From Firmicutes bacterium HGW-Firmicutes-1 (GTDB lineage: Bacteria; Bacillota; Clostridia; Lachnospirales; Vallitaleaceae), in NCBI GenBank assembly GCA_002841625.1, contig PHAG01000001.1:124001-188000 (forward strand): DNA of 64,000 bases. The letters run 5' to 3'. Made by a program: the position numbers and the translations under genes. The first letter of the stretch is position 1. Each line of letters begins with the position of its first letter. The notes beneath the pieces were generated by a model that was not told where the DNA came from, did no database searches, and saw only the letters and a program-made list of their open reading frames with translations. Shown here piece after piece: positions 27,202 to 32,791 of the stretch.

Positions 27202-28965
27202 CTAATATTTTTTTACTATCTTCGATGTTATAAATGATCCTGTTTTATTATCATTGTATTTATTTGCAACTGAATTGAATTTGTGATTAGGTGCCACATA
27301 AATAAAGTGCGTAGTTATGTTGCTCGGAGAAGTAACGGAATTTTTTTCAATAATCATATTATCACTACCTCCACCATAAAAAATGATTGCAAAGCCTTCT
27401 TTTGATTTCTTAGAAACTACACCACAATCTTCAAAAGTGTTTTTTGTAATCGTTACACTGCTGGCATTGTTAATTAGTAATCCAGCACCATCTTCAGTAT
27501 GACCTAGTTTTACAAAGGAATTACCTACCACATTCACATCAAGCACCTTTTTACCACCAAGACCTAAGCCTAAACCACTATTGCAATTTTGCAACAAATT
27601 CTCTTGGATATTTAATCCTCTAATGCCTTGCGCTTGTATAGGAGCAAAGCAATTTTTAATTGTATTCTTCAAGATATTAATGTTTAGCTTCGGAATAGAA
27701 TCATTCATAACTTCATATGCCTGTGTTAAATGAATACCAATATATGCACCATCAATAACATTTCCTTCTATTACTATGCCTTCTGTAGGTCCCAATAACA
27801 TTGTACTTAGATAATTAGGGTTATAATATACAATACCTATTGTTCCTATATCATTAAAATAATTGTTTTTAATAGTAATGTCTTTAATAATTGTCCACTC
27901 AATACTATTTTTATGGTTAGGTTCAATACAAATTGCTCCTGGCATATCGCTTCTACTAATACGCTTAAATTTATTATTTTCTATAAGTATGTCTGAGCCA
28001 TCAAGTATACTTATGCCATTTCTATTGTCCTTATTAATCCCATCAAACTGCGAATTTCTAATTGTTACATTTGAAACATGTCTTTCTTTCTTAGACTCTA
28101 CTCCAATAAAAATACCATCACCTCGAAAACCTTCAAACATAACCGTGTCTACTAATATATTAGAACATGAGTTTAATGAGAGTAAGTGCACCCATTCACT
28201 GAATCCTTCAGAATCAACAGTACCTTGTAGTTTAAGATTTTTTATTTCAACATTTTGAATGCTTCCTACTAATTTTTTATTACCATTTGGTTGATTTGTA
28301 TCAATTCCACCTTGATTTATACCTAAAAGTGATTGAAACTTATGTTCTTCTACTTTTTGTTGAAGTACAGAGTTCCACCCATCTCCTATGATCGAAATAT
28401 TAGACTTTAATTTAATATTATTGCAAAGATAATTACCTTTAGGGATATAAACTATGCCTCCCTCATCTCCTAAAAAATCGATAGCATCTTGAATAGATTT
28501 TGTATCATCAGTAATGCCATCACCCTTAGCACCAAACGCTACTATATTTACTTTATTTCGTTCGGATAAATCTGATGCCCCCAGGGCTACAGCACGATAT
28601 TTTTTATCAATACTAATAAATGGTGATTCAATTTTAGCAACATTAGCAACATTAGCAACATTAGCAACATTAGCAACATCAGCAACAATAACAGGTGAAA
28701 TGTTGTTTGTTATAGAATCAATTTCACTATCTGCACCAGAATTTTCTATGATTCCTTCATAGGTTCCCGAATCATCTATACTGTTATTGATTTCTTTATC
28801 ATCTATTTTATAAAGAATAGTTGATTCCGATACTTCCATAACTGGAATTTCTTCGCTTGTATTAATTTCTGTAGAAGATGAGGAAAACATTATAATGAGA
28901 TACAAAAAGCTAAATGAAATAATAATTCCCAATATTACTTTTTTATTTTTATTTTGGTTTTTCAT
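27202..28965 (-). CDS. membrane-anchored right-handed beta-helix protein (pectate lyase superfamily)
   Basis: A protein of about 587 residues. The ATG at 28963-28965 is chosen because the product then begins MKNQNK, matching the LCP protein; two earlier in-frame starts (28977, 28980) are possible. An N-terminal anchor (about 9-27) is followed by a low-complexity linker with five VAN triplets, then a Pectate_lyase_3 beta-helix from about residue 145 (NIVAFGAKGDGITDDTKSIQ). The helix turns show repeated NITI/N-ladder patterns. It is a close paralogue of the next protein. It may cleave, modify or bind the polysaccharide at the cell surface; no catalytic residues could be assigned. Confidence 0.85.
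   Translation of the reverse strand: MKNQNKNKKVILGIIISFSFLYLIIMFSSSSTEINTSEEIPVMEVSESTILYKIDDKEINNSIDDSGTYEGIIENSGADSEIDSITNNISPVIVADVANVANVANVANVAKIESPFISIDKKYRAVALGASDLSERNKVNIVAFGAKGDGITDDTKSIQDAIDFLGDEGGIVYIPKGNYLCNNIKLKSNISIIGDGWNSVLQQKVEEHKFQSLLGINQGGIDTNQPNGNKKLVGSIQNVEIKNLKLQGTVDSEGFSEWVHLLSLNSCSNILVDTVMFEGFRGDGIFIGVESKKERHVSNVTIRNSQFDGINKDNRNGISILDGSDILIENNKFKRISRSDMPGAICIEPNHKNSIEWTIIKDITIKNNYFNDIGTIGIVYYNPNYLSTMLLGPTEGIVIEGNVIDGAYIGIHLTQAYEVMNDSIPKLNINILKNTIKNCFAPIQAQGIRGLNIQENLLQNCNSGLGLGLGGKKVLDVNVVGNSFVKLGHTEDGAGLLINNASSVTITKNTFEDCGVVSKKSKEGFAIIFYGGGSDNMIIEKNSVTSPSNITTHFIYVAPNHKFNSVANKYNDNKTGSFITSKIVKKY
28634..28687. repeat. 9-bp tandem repeat inside the beta-helix gene
   Basis: Five perfect TTAGCAACA units and a sixth with one change. 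On the coding strand they give the VAN tripeptide repeat in the linker. Loss or gain of units would change linker length without a frameshift. Confidence 0.9.
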
Positions 28966-29164
28966 AATTAATTCCATCACCGTCTCTTTCTTTTATATTC
29001 TAGTAAAAGAGTATCACAATACATTTTTTTTTTCAACATATAAAACAAAATGTTTGTAGAATGAAATACAAATGAAATATAAATGAAATATAAGTTAAGT
29101 TTATTCAAATGAATAATCGACATTTTCTAATAATAATTACTCTTTTTTAACAAATAAAAACAAC

Positions 29165-29226: not shown

Positions 29227-31254
29227 TTATAATTTTACGATTTTAGATGAACTAAAACCACCTGTAATATTACCGCTGTATGTATTCGTAGTTGCATTAA
29301 AAGTATGATTAGAAGCTACGTAGATAAAGCTTGTGGTTATATTATTTGGGGATGTTACTGTATTTTTCGTAAAAATTATGTTATCGGTAGTTCCACCATA
29401 AAATATGATAGCAAACCCTTCTTTGTACTTAGTAGATACCACTCCACAATCTTCAAACTTGTTGTTTTCAATTGTTATCCTGCTTGCAGTTCCAATAAAT
29501 AATCCAGCAGCATCCTCTGTAGAACCGAGTCTTACAAAAGAATTGCCATTTACATTTACATCAAGTACTTTTTTACCACCTAGGCCTAAGCCTAAACCGC
29601 TATTACAATTTTCAAATAAGTTTCCTCGAATACTTAATCCTCTAATACCTTGAGCTTGAACAGGTGCTAAACAATTTTTAATTGAATTGTTTACTATATT
29701 AATGTTTAGTTTAGGAACTGAATCATTCATTGTTTCATAAATCTGCGATAAATAAATCCCAACATATGCTCCATCAATAACATTGCCTTCGATAGTTATT
29801 CCATCCGTAGATCCTTTAAGCATTTCACTTTGGTTATTAGGATTGAAATATACAATAGCTATTGCTCCAATATCTTTAAATGAATTATTTTTTATAGTAA
29901 TATTTTTAAGAATTGTCCATTTGATACTTTCATTATGATTAGGTTCAATATCAATTGCTCCTGGCATATCCTTTCTAGTAGTATGCTCAAACGAATTGTT
30001 TTCTATAAGTATGTTTGAACCATCGAGTATACTAATACCATTTCTGTTATCTTTATTAATCCCATTAAATTGCGAATTTCTAACGTTCACATCTGAAACA
30101 TGTCTTTCTACCCTTGACTCCACACCTATAAATATACCATCACCACGATAACCTTCGAATTTTACTGTATCGACTAATATATTAGAACATGAATTAAGTG
30201 TAAGTAAGTGTACCCATTCACTGAATCCGTCAGAATCAACTGTACCTTTTAACTTAATATTTTTAATTATAACATTATTAATACTTCCTAACAAATCGTT
30301 GTTACCTTCTGGTTTAAGCGTTCCAGCTCCACCTGAATTTATACCTAAAAGCGATTGGTATCCAGTTAATCCTGATTTTTGTTGAATTATAGATTCCCAA
30401 CCATCTCCCATTATTGTAACATTAGACTTTAATTTAATATTATTAGCGATAAAGATACCTTTTGGAAAAAATATTACGCCTCCATTTTCACCTAAAGAAT
30501 CAATCGCATTCTGTATAGATTTTGTATCATCGGTGAATCCATCTCCTTTAGCTCCGAAACTTACTACATTTATGTATTCAGATGGTAATTGTACATCAAT
30601 ACTAATTTCAGGTTGAGGCTCGTCAATAACTACTGGTTCGTTAATGACTACTGGTTCGTTATTGACTACTGGTTCGTTATTGACTACTGGTTCGTTATTG
30701 ACTACATTTTCTTCTTGATCTATTATCGTATTTACTGGTTCACTCTCACTAACTATTACTGGTTCATTAGATACTTCTTTAGTTAATAATTGTGCATTAT
30801 ATGCCAACTGATTGGCTTTTAATTGTTCATTATATGCTAATTTATTAACTATTAATTGTTCGTTGTATATTGTTTTATTTAACTCAAGTTGTTTTTGATA
30901 ATTTAGCTTGTTACTTGCTAACTGATTTGTATAAACTATCTTATTACTATTTATCTGTGAGGCATTAGCTCCAATATTAGCTAATTTTAGTTCTTCACTT
31001 GCTAATACATTCGCTTGTCTATAATCATTATTTGCTAACGCATTTGCTAATCTTAGTACTTCGTTTGTTGCTGCATTCGCTTTTTTATATTCTTCAAGAG
31101 CTGTCAAGTTTGCTACTTTTAGTTGTTCTGTTGTCAACACCCCATATTCTACAACTGTTGTTTCAGCCGCAATACTTGTATTTACAAATATTGAAGACTG
31201 AATGATACCTGCTAATAATAATACTGATAGTGCAAACGCTACTATTTTTTTCAT
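29227..31254 (-). CDS. secreted beta-helix protein with 11-residue Asn repeats, under c-di-GMP riboswitches
   Basis: A 675-residue exported protein with a signal peptide at about 1-29 (ending SIAAE). Residues 42-160 form ten full and one partial 11-residue repeats with Asn at position 8 in each full unit, for example YNEQLIVNKLA and YNEQLKANQLA, suggesting a right-handed coiled-coil stalk. Four six-residue NNEPVV-type repeats (about 186-211) follow. The C-terminal part from about 227 is a Pectate_lyase_3 beta-helix closely similar to the protein at 27202-28965. It is read from GGAGG 5 bases before the ATG, and its leader holds two c-di-GMP-I riboswitches. No LPXTG or other anchor is visible. 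Probable surface or matrix protein. Confidence 0.87.
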   Translation of the reverse strand: MKKIVAFALSVLLLAGIIQSSIFVNTSIAAETTVVEYGVLTTEQLKVANLTALEEYKKANAATNEVLRLANALANNDYRQANVLASEELKLANIGANASQINSNKIVYTNQLASNKLNYQKQLELNKTIYNEQLIVNKLAYNEQLKANQLAYNAQLLTKEVSNEPVIVSESEPVNTIIDQEENVVNNEPVVNNEPVVNNEPVVINEPVVIDEPQPEISIDVQLPSEYINVVSFGAKGDGFTDDTKSIQNAIDSLGENGGVIFFPKGIFIANNIKLKSNVTIMGDGWESIIQQKSGLTGYQSLLGINSGGAGTLKPEGNNDLLGSINNVIIKNIKLKGTVDSDGFSEWVHLLTLNSCSNILVDTVKFEGYRGDGIFIGVESRVERHVSDVNVRNSQFNGINKDNRNGISILDGSNILIENNSFEHTTRKDMPGAIDIEPNHNESIKWTILKNITIKNNSFKDIGAIAIVYFNPNNQSEMLKGSTDGITIEGNVIDGAYVGIYLSQIYETMNDSVPKLNINIVNNSIKNCLAPVQAQGIRGLSIRGNLFENCNSGLGLGLGGKKVLDVNVNGNSFVRLGSTEDAAGLFIGTASRITIENNKFEDCGVVSTKYKEGFAIIFYGGTTDNIIFTKNTVTSPNNITTSFIYVASNHTFNATTNTYSGNITGGFSSSKIVKL
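30621..30706. repeat. 18-bp tandem repeat encoding NNEPVV units
   Basis: Four to five near-identical 18-bp units of the form ACTACTGGTTCGTTATTG; on the minus strand they code for a Pro-rich spacer of the beta-helix protein. Confidence 0.85.
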
Positions 31255-31259
31255 AATTA

Positions 31260-31276
31260 TTCCTCCATTTTAGGAA
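31260..31276 (-). promoter_or_regulatory. possible ribosome-site sequestering hairpin
   Basis: In the transcript UUCCU (31272-31276), at the 3' edge of aptamer B, can pair with AGGAA (31260-31264), part of the GGAGGAA ribosome site, across 7 bases. This suggests translational control by the second aptamer. Confidence 0.5.
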
Positions 31277-31341
31277 ACTGGCTGCCATTTTACAGGCCCT
31301 GTAGTTTTGCGTCTTAGCTTTTCAGCTAATTTGCCTTTTGC
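31270..31341 (-). ncRNA. c-di-GMP-I (GEMM) riboswitch, aptamer B (start-codon proximal)
   Basis: On the minus strand the GEMM-I landmarks occur in order: GGCAAA after an A-rich lead, the hairpin TTAGCTGAAAAGCTAA with a GNRA-type loop, then GACGCAAAACTACAGGGCC, and TGGCAGCCAGTTTCC at the 3' end. These are the conserved bases that bind cyclic di-GMP. It ends about 6 bases from the ribosome site of the beta-helix gene. Confidence 0.88.
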
Positions 31342-31422
31342 ATTTGAAGTACAATTAATTAAAATCTAATTTTTTGCACTTTTAGTTTCTTATTAAGTTT
31401 GTACCCACATTTTTAGCAACAT

Positions 31423-31443
31423 AAAAACTCCCCTTTGGGAACC
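31423..31443 (-). terminator. short hairpin with U-run after riboswitch aptamer A
   Basis: UUCCC pairs with GGGGA around AAA and is followed by GUUUUU. It overlaps the 3' edge of aptamer A, as an intrinsic terminator expression platform would. The stem is only five pairs, so strength is doubtful. Confidence 0.5.
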
Positions 31444-31510
31444 GGCTGCCACCTATAATATAGAAGGCCCTTGGCTTTGCGTCCTATTCTTTCGAATAGT
31501 TTGCCTTTAT
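31436..31510 (-). ncRNA. c-di-GMP-I (GEMM) riboswitch, aptamer A (promoter proximal)
   Basis: On the minus strand: AAAGGCAAACTATTCGAAAG with its partner AATAGG (GAAA-type tetraloop), then GACGCAAAGCCAAGGGCC, then GGTGGCAGCCGGTTCCC. This is a near-consensus GEMM-I aptamer. It lies about 90 bases upstream of aptamer B in the same leader. Confidence 0.93.
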
Positions 31511-31634
31511 CAGTAGAAGTTCAATAAATAATCTAAAAAGTATATTCTGTAATGCTATTATGTTTAAATTAAATTCACTAATTTTAACCCCATTAAAAAT
31601 ATATAAAGATATACCTATTAATGTTTGTACACTA

Positions 31635-31663
31635 ATATTATCACCTTTAACCAATAATTGCAA
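31635..31663 (-). promoter_or_regulatory. extended -10 promoter for the riboswitch leader
   Basis: Minus-strand TTGCAA (31658-31663), 17 bases, then TAATAT (31635-31640) preceded by TGA. The predicted transcript would start near 31628 and have a leader of about 375 bases. Confidence 0.5.
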
Positions 31664-31711: not shown

Positions 31712-32791
31712 TTAAATAGAAAATATCCATTGATATGGTACTGTTTGATTATTATTAAAATGAAATAAAAAGATTAACCAAATAACAATCAGAATAATTA
31801 AAATCAAATAACTAATTACAACTAATTTCATTGAATTCAATATCCTTATGTAATAGGGTATTACAAATGTAAAAGCTGAAAAAAATACAATACTTGCTCG
31901 TAATGAAATTGTTGCAAATACTCCTCTACTGGCAAATTGTATAATAAACCCAATTACTAAGAGCATATAATAAAATACAAATCTATGGTCATGCTTTTTA
32001 ATGAAGCTATACAAAAAAATTCCTGGTAATATATAGGGTAAGTTTGATATATCCATCATAAGATGCCCCTGTGATTCAGCTACTGCGTTGTCCAAATAAA
32101 CTCCATACATATATAAAACAGGAAAAATATTAATGAGTTTCAATAAGATTAAATCAGCATAAAGTACCAGGAGCATAATAATCCCCCAAAGTAGAAACTG
32201 TAAGGATAACCTTGTTTTTTTCTCAACTATAAAATACATAAAATATACGGGTATAAAGAACAAAGCTGTAGTATGAATACTAGCAGAAAATAAAACACAA
32301 ATCATAAATTTTATAATCTTTTTCTTAAAGACATATTTAGTGCTAAATAGTAGTATTGCAACGGCTAATAATTGTCTTACATTATTAAATGAAGCTTGAT
32401 AATTAACCAACATATAAACAAACATACCTATTCCTACGCTTAGTTTGTCTTTATGTTCATATAGTGCTAAATAAACAAATAATATAGTTAGTAACGAAAC
32501 TACAAAAAAACCAACCTGTGCATTTCCACCTAACAAAGATATTGCTTTATTAAGCAAATTATATCCTATTTCGATTCTATTTTCAATATTATTCTTGCTT
32601 TGCTCAAAGGTTATTACATAATTATAATAATCAGTACCAATACCATATCTTACACCAGAAAAAAAAGCTGGAACAATTAACATTAATAACGCAAAATAAG
32701 CTTTTATAAATTTATTTTTTATTTTCACTGTACATTCTGCAAGTATACTAGTTGTTAAAATAATTCCACCGTATAATATAATTGATCCCAC
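31712..32791 (-). CDS. EpsG-family polysaccharide polymerase
   Basis: A 359-residue multi-pass membrane protein (about ten segments) with the EpsG motif FFSGVRYGIGTDYYNYV near residues 42-59, followed by helices with NVRQLLAVAI. EpsG/Wzy proteins join lipid-linked repeat units on the outer face of the membrane. The start is GTG with AAGGAG 6 bases upstream. It is the last gene of the long assembly run, right before the riboswitch-controlled unit. Family call is by motif; substrate unknown. Confidence 0.85.
   Translation of the reverse strand: MGSIILYGGIILTTSILAECTVKIKNKFIKAYFALLMLIVPAFFSGVRYGIGTDYYNYVITFEQSKNNIENRIEIGYNLLNKAISLLGGNAQVGFFVVSLLTILFVYLALYEHKDKLSVGIGMFVYMLVNYQASFNNVRQLLAVAILLFSTKYVFKKKIIKFMICVLFSASIHTTALFFIPVYFMYFIVEKKTRLSLQFLLWGIIMLLVLYADLILLKLINIFPVLYMYGVYLDNAVAESQGHLMMDISNLPYILPGIFLYSFIKKHDHRFVFYYMLLVIGFIIQFASRGVFATISLRASIVFFSAFTFVIPYYIRILNSMKLVVISYLILIILIVIWLIFLFHFNNNQTVPYQWIFSI

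Follow-up and report, generated by a model that had tools for sequence, protein, structure and literature searches.

Tandem c-di-GMP-I riboswitches before a secreted beta-helix gene of Firmicutes bacterium HGW-Firmicutes-1: evidence for a possible two-level design

Introduction

The leader of a beta-helix gene in Firmicutes bacterium HGW-Firmicutes-1 raises the question of how two aptamers of one riboswitch class, placed in series, divide the control of a single gene. The c-di-GMP-I riboswitches are reported as the class with the most same-class tandems, 347 doublets and 12 triplets having been counted (PMC9481103). Bi-mechanism tandems were defined in the same work from SAM riboswitches; tandems are described there as not comprehensively evaluated for such bi-mechanism, and the division of labour among the platforms of c-di-GMP-I tandems is left open. 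In a further study the first unit of a tandem is expected to be transcriptional and the second to be of either type (PMC12452182).

The window considered here is a stretch of 64,000 nucleotides (contig PHAG01000001.1, positions 124,001 to 188,000). If one aptamer type could act at two levels through one helix, the evolution of such tandems would follow a simple rule, and the locus would allow a clear-cut decision between a stacking that steepens the response and one that layers it. The arrangement also appears to link c-di-GMP with secreted beta-helix proteins of one class, some of which at least are encoded in polysaccharide loci.

Results and Discussion

The locus and the regulated gene

The leader lies in the 457 bases that separate the beta-helix gene, starting at 31254, from an EpsG-family gene (31712-32791, minus strand). 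The product of the beta-helix gene has a signal-peptide-like start, as judged by eye, and an EPVV-repeat stretch. On the 5' side of the leader, and in the same direction, lie the EpsG-family gene and genes for glycosyltransferases, a MurJ-type flippase, an aminotransferase and a polysaccharide-biosynthesis epimerase, while a paralogous beta-helix gene (27202-28980), an oxidoreductase gene and genes for nucleotide-sugar enzymes are found on the 3' side of the regulated gene. An earlier reading made from the sequence only had proposed a beta-helix gene inside a polysaccharide locus; both parts are supported. The paralogous gene shows about 70% identity to the regulated gene over the matched part, and no riboswitch match was found before it in the Rfam scan of the window. 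The features of the leader are collected in Table 1. Promoter-like matches occurred at the frequency found in shuffled sequence (30 observed, 26.9 expected).

Table 1. Positions of the tandem riboswitch, its candidate platform elements and the regulated gene in the window
Feature	Position	Strand	Remarks
Candidate promoter-like site TTTAAA, 18 nt, TATACT	31539..31568	-	just 5' of unit 1; 9/12 consensus match; weak candidate
Outer P1 5' strand, unit 1 (GAACUUCU)	31515..31522	-	predicted to pair with 31432-31425, -7.9 kcal/mol
Aptamer 1, c-di-GMP-I	31433..31514	-	RF03167 63.9 bits (gathering 59, E 8.8e-13); RF01051 69.4 bits, same stretch
Terminator-like alternative hairpin GGUUCCC-AAAG-GGGAGUU	31426..31443	-	pattern scan; -5.5 kcal/mol
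Outer P1 3' strand, unit 1 (GGGAGUUU)	31425..31432	-	3' end inside U-run
U-run UUUUU, unit 1	31423..31427	-	sequence
Nine-codon frame MLLKMWVQT after U-run	31393..31422	-	behind GGGGAG; probably chance
Outer P1 5' strand, unit 2 (UAAUUGU-A-CUUCA)	31345..31357	-	predicted to pair with 31267-31263 and 31260-31254, -7.4 kcal/mol
Aptamer 2, c-di-GMP-I	31270..31345	-	RF01051 66.9 bits (gathering 35, E 6.3e-11)
Alternative hairpin UUUCC-UAAAAU-GGAGG	31262..31277	-	-3.8 kcal/mol; preferred in unconstrained fold
Ribosome site GGAGGA of beta-helix gene	31261..31266	-	within unit-2 P1 3' strand
Regulated gene	29227..31254	-	675 aa, pectate-lyase-like beta-helix: PF12708 7.1e-19, PF13229 2.8e-9

Identity and ligand of the two aptamers

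The presence of two GEMM-I (c-di-GMP-I) aptamers in one leader, which had been proposed together with a covariance score as the check, was borne out for both units: each exceeded the RF01051 gathering threshold (Table 1), and both matches are far beyond chance. Positions 20, 47 and 92, which we take to be the ligand-contact positions in Vc2 numbering, are occupied by G (31505), A (31478) and C (31438) in aptamer 1 and by G (31335), A (31308) and C (31274) in aptamer 2. Since the same G, A and C stand at the three contact columns in both units, c-di-GMP is the expected ligand of both, as in ordinary c-di-GMP sensors. The suggestion of an AND-like response did not hold in the sense of a two-signal gate, the three contact residues being identical in the two pockets; with one ligand expected for both units, the term can mean at most a steeper response.

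The best-ranked label of aptamer 1 was that of c-di-GMP-I-GGC (RF03167), a family for which aptamer 2 scored 56.8 bits, under the gathering value of 59. The RF03167 consensus has a G after GACGC, in a column where the alignment places an A in aptamer 1 and where all 85 tallied aptamers of the family likewise carry A; the GGC of the family name presumably refers to this base. The candidate of a variant binding a different ligand was ruled out by the A at the diagnostic column together with the higher bit score for RF01051, and the label looks like a cross-hit, which is also given to many relatives having A at that column. The Rfam clan filter was observed to choose RF03167 for 31514-31433 by E-value in spite of the higher RF01051 bit score. 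If annotation relied on cmscan alone, many ordinary c-di-GMP-I aptamers in these genomes would receive the wrong label.

An A at position 20 is known from c-AMP-GMP-type variants. This residue is absent from both window aptamers, which have G; in the family the tally of position 20 was G 61, A 20 and C 4 (n = 85, 17 of the 102 aptamers having been left out for lack of a recognisable anchor motif). A second tandem of the own genome (C4:96307-96124) has A in unit 1 and G in unit 2, and four transglutaminase-type tandems (L078, L080, L082 and L084) have A and then C. As position 20 differs between the units, A being the c-AMP-GMP-type residue, some tandems of this kind may read two signals.

Candidate expression platforms in the window

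The purine strand on the 3' side of each aptamer is contested by two helices, namely an outer extension of P1 and a hairpin formed with the base of P3 and C92-C93. The latter corresponds to the hairpins named in the sequence-only reading, a short hairpin with U-run acting on transcription in unit 1 and a hairpin over the ribosome site acting on translation in unit 2.

The hairpin after aptamer 1 has the core UUCCC-AAA-GGGGA and at most seven pairs including G-U, and it is among the strongest of the U-class units. Terminator-like sites numbered three in 4 kb on both strands, two of them being this hairpin, against 1.3 (sd 1.3) in shuffles, so that the unit-1 hairpin alone is not beyond chance. 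The unit-1 stem is weak under either model. The competing P1 stem would make an unusual terminator, being short with many A-U and G-U pairs, and this counts against a reading in which P1 itself terminates.

In unit 2 the last base of the P1 5' strand coincides with the first base of the Rfam match. The segments UAAUUGU and CUUCA of this strand would pair with UGGAG and AUAAUUA, so that the ribosome site is covered and the helix runs on as far as the first start-codon base. The element GGAGG (31266-31262) has two possible partners, UUUCC (31277-31273) or the upstream strand of P1, and in the window the ribosome site appears largely hidden whether or not ligand is modelled, the hairpin covering it in the free state and P1 in the bound state. 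Access thus shows no net change, a further point against P1 as the output.

Distribution of the layout in the own genome, the family and beyond

The platforms become convincing only through the relatives, judging from the recurrence of the layout. Matches to c-di-GMP-I were present in 21 of 22 genomes of the family, 102 in total, and the grouping of neighbours less than 250 nt apart gave 17 doublets and 5 triplets comprising 49 aptamers. In all 17 doublets the first aptamer is followed, within 14 nt, by a run of at least 5 U. The second unit runs into a ribosome site and ATG in 13 of the 16 assessable doublets, one being cut by a contig end; the second units without an adjoining ribosome site belong to G009, G010 and G011 and count against the two-level design. 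The proposed types of platform, transcriptional for unit 1 and translational for unit 2, find support among the relatives, whereas the particular hairpins named for them are weak and, as described below, lack specific conservation. The 5 triplets of the family behave differently: none of the 10 units ahead of their third units has such a U-run, which also counts against the two-level design, and the third units have GGGAGAG after the aptamer. In these triplets (L068-L072) the frame after the GGGAGAG of the third unit seems to start at CTG, no ATG, GTG or TTG being found at the expected distance.

The own genome contains six c-di-GMP-I matches, which constitute the window tandem, the second tandem and two single units. 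The second tandem precedes a transglutaminase-like gene (Transglut_core) and has the same layout of U-run and ribosome site. One single unit (C11:109292-109211) has a run of seven U and lies 129 bases before a flagellin gene; the other (C1:42349-42271) also has a U-run and lies before a gene of the T2SS-F/PilC type (Pfam). An apparent counterpart of the latter unit and gene was observed in a relative of the same genus (L130).

A typed pattern of unit 1 matched 14 stretches in named genomes, including Acetobacterium, Sedimentibacter and a Bacillus. Among 12 of these stretches scanned with Rfam (L146 and L150 were not among them), 11 contained c-di-GMP-I aptamers; the match in L152, having none, was set aside as chance. 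In the order-level search matches were obtained in 125 of 295 genomes, with three tandem-looking places among the matches listed (L153-L155).

The same layout precedes eight secreted beta-helix genes, including that of the window, each with a beta-helix Pfam match. A genome of the same genus has it ahead of a different gene for a secreted beta-helix protein, one with an EEVIVP-repeat stretch, near glycosyltransferase and aminotransferase genes. Doublets or triplets before secreted beta-helix genes with repeat stretches were likewise found in two Acetobacterium records (L140 and L141) and in three genomes of one genus (G381, G471 and G577); in these the last unit adjoins the ribosome site and the preceding unit has a U-run, the first unit of the triplets of L141, L219 and L221 being devoid of a clear one. 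Searches that started from the protein gave another picture. No relative was confirmed in the scan of the named genomes with the beta-helix protein, and in the family, class and phylum searches the beta-helix matches were mostly weak and partial. A c-di-GMP-I aptamer was present at only 3 of the 60 scanned loci from these protein searches (L164, L198 and L206), which indicates that beta-helix genes in general are not riboswitch-controlled.

Which helix is conserved as a pair

The two competing helices were compared by a re-deal test, in which the pairing energy within each unit is set against that obtained when the partner strands are shuffled between units, rows with identical strands having been removed beforehand. 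Three units fell in neither class (L145_1518, L219_8176 and L221_665), and two units of L142 and a single one each of L141 and L144 were absent from the test. For P1 the own partners gave -6.73 kcal/mol in the U-class (29 units) against -5.48 kcal/mol (sd 0.24) after shuffling, with 0 of 1000 shuffles as good, and -6.34 against -5.32 kcal/mol (sd 0.36) in the SD-class (25 units), with 5 of 1000 as good. These frequencies treat related sequences as independent; after thinning to 15 U-class and 18 SD-class units, which is a partial correction only, 0 and 8 of 1000 shuffles were as good, and the family-only run gave 0 of 2000 (19 U-class units) and 24 of 2000 (17 SD-class units).

The hairpins were not pair-specific, the energies being -2.17 against -2.30 kcal/mol in the U-class (809 of 1000 shuffles as good) and -2.70 against -2.83 kcal/mol in the SD-class (715 of 1000), with 813 and 454 of 1000 in the thinned sets; since the hairpin strand hardly varies, the test has little power for these helices, although their energies are low anyway. 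P1 being pair-specific and the hairpins not, P1 is the likelier output helix, and the hairpins are unlikely to be the conserved element that switches.

The position of P1 agrees with such a role. At least three of the four core ribosome-site bases are paired by P1 in all 26 SD-class rows (two of them with identical strands), and in the U-class P1 ends within -2 to +4 of the start of the U-run in 21 of 29 rows, reaching further into or past the U-run in the remaining 8; both counts stand without a shuffled control of their own. Folding with and without ligand gave a less clear result, which counts against this role of P1. In many units P1 formed also without ligand, and access to the ribosome site was little changed in most rows, with no consistent sign: it fell in G005:C1a, G008:C153, the own C4 tandem and G001:C75 and rose in G009. 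In L140, L141, L218 and L221 the strand on the 5' side of the aptamer could form a hairpin of its own, GGAA-N4/5-UUCC, in competition with P1, and this hairpin could be the ligand-free state there.

Proposed mechanism and alternatives

These data point, with somewhat better than even confidence, to a two-level design in which transcription and then translation are controlled with P1 as the shared output. The leader would contain two complete c-di-GMP-I riboswitches in series, responding to the same ligand. Bound c-di-GMP would clamp P1, the helix closing each aptamer, which would be the output of each unit. Where the 3' strand of P1 meets the U-run, in unit 1, the state of P1 would set the putative termination by RNA polymerase; in unit 2 the corresponding strand holds the ribosome site, and the state of P1 would set ribosome loading.

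Should the ligand clamp P1, in which the ribosome site lies, unit 2 would be an OFF switch. Unit 1 is most simply and coherently read as OFF too, P1 beside the U-run acting as a terminator stem completed by the ligand. Output of the beta-helix protein would then be lowered by c-di-GMP first through termination and then through a hidden ribosome site; this repression at both levels is the favoured sign, its chances being about even. The HMP-PP 'terminator-embedded' switch, at first regarded as a possible precedent for a P1 terminator, was dropped because it is described as an ON switch. The genes behind the U-run units are split as to the sign, as the same type of unit precedes both flagellin and T2SS-F/PilC-type genes. 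Repression by c-di-GMP is expected for flagellin and activation for a PilC-type gene, so that the U-run unit before the latter counts against the OFF reading.

The strongest alternative, though a less likely one, is that both units are ON switches, as the hairpins of the sequence-only reading would imply: without ligand the base of P3 and C92-C93 would pair with the purine strand, which would give a terminator after the first aptamer and conceal the ribosome site after the second, and the ligand would free both by way of P1. Published ON designs do use this other hairpin, with the C92 strand in the terminator, as in Bc3-5 (PMC4759541) and pilM (PMC9262584), both ON switches whose terminators employ the C92-equivalent base. 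The strength of the unit-1 hairpin within its class fits this alternative, as does the free fold of unit 2, where the P3-base strand lies over the ribosome site and is removed in the bound fold. Against it, the bound state of unit 2 hides the ribosome site too, in P1, and the hairpins average only -2.2 and -2.7 kcal/mol, no better than re-dealt partners in what is, for them, a low-power test.

It is improbable that the units differ in sign, c-di-GMP relieving unit 1 and shutting unit 2 so that expression is confined to a middle range. Anatomically, P1 could antiterminate in unit 1 and cover the ribosome site in unit 2, and incoherent regulation has been reported for the single riboswitch Bc1 (PMC11218506), but the 13 fully laid-out doublets of the family would then all need to have preserved such a scheme. 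That unit 1 governs translation of the nine-codon frame after the U-run instead of termination can hardly be maintained: the sequence does offer GGGGAG and, five bases on, AUG with an open frame, yet in none of the other 16 family doublets does an ATG directly follow the U-run, which rules out the frame as a conserved feature.

Returning to P1 as the common output helix, it is tempting to speculate on a switch design with interchangeable outputs, although this generalisation seems to us rather less than an even bet. The ligand-clamped P1 would be the effector, the content of its 3' strand, U-run or ribosome site, would set the level of control, and stacked copies would make a coherent two-level OFF device, kept or repeatedly gained ahead of secreted beta-helix proteins in two or more clostridial lineages.

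Relation to known systems

The tandem c-di-GMP-I riboswitches already described resemble the window in having two same-class aptamers per leader, for which a steeper, 'pseudo-cooperative' response is expected (PMC9481103), whereas the window units seem to differ in platform. The SAM-II/SAM-V bi-mechanism tandem and the mixed SAM-II doublets (PMC9481103) have the order proposed here, terminator first and ribosome site second, with one ligand; the window differs from them in ligand and aptamer classes, both units being of one c-di-GMP class and seeming to share the output helix. The triple c-di-GMP-I riboswitch Bc3-5 of B. thuringiensis likewise consists of serial units, each with its own platform, but all three are described as terminators and ON (PMC4759541), whereas the last unit of the window adjoins the ribosome site. 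Bc1 combines control of transcription and translation behind a c-di-GMP-I aptamer, but it has a single aptamer with a long platform, its two effects are opposite, and it did not respond to c-di-GMP under the conditions tested (PMC11218506). The c-di-GMP-I doublets before COG1305 transglutaminase-like genes (PMC12452182) are matched by the second tandem of the own genome, the gene in the window encoding a beta-helix protein instead.

In a literature search covering titles and abstract openings, which is weak evidence of absence, neither a two-mechanism c-di-GMP-I tandem nor a link of c-di-GMP-I riboswitches to Acetobacterium or to pectate-lyase-like genes of Clostridia was encountered. What appears to be new here is the putative same-ligand, two-mechanism c-di-GMP-I tandem, tandems and bi-mechanism designs as such being already known.

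A further arrangement was observed in a Peptococcaceae MAG (L142 2481-1801, minus strand), where a c-di-GMP-I doublet is followed by a c-di-GMP-II doublet within about 300 bases; the gene after the latter begins MKKKNTKRTIKTSLL.
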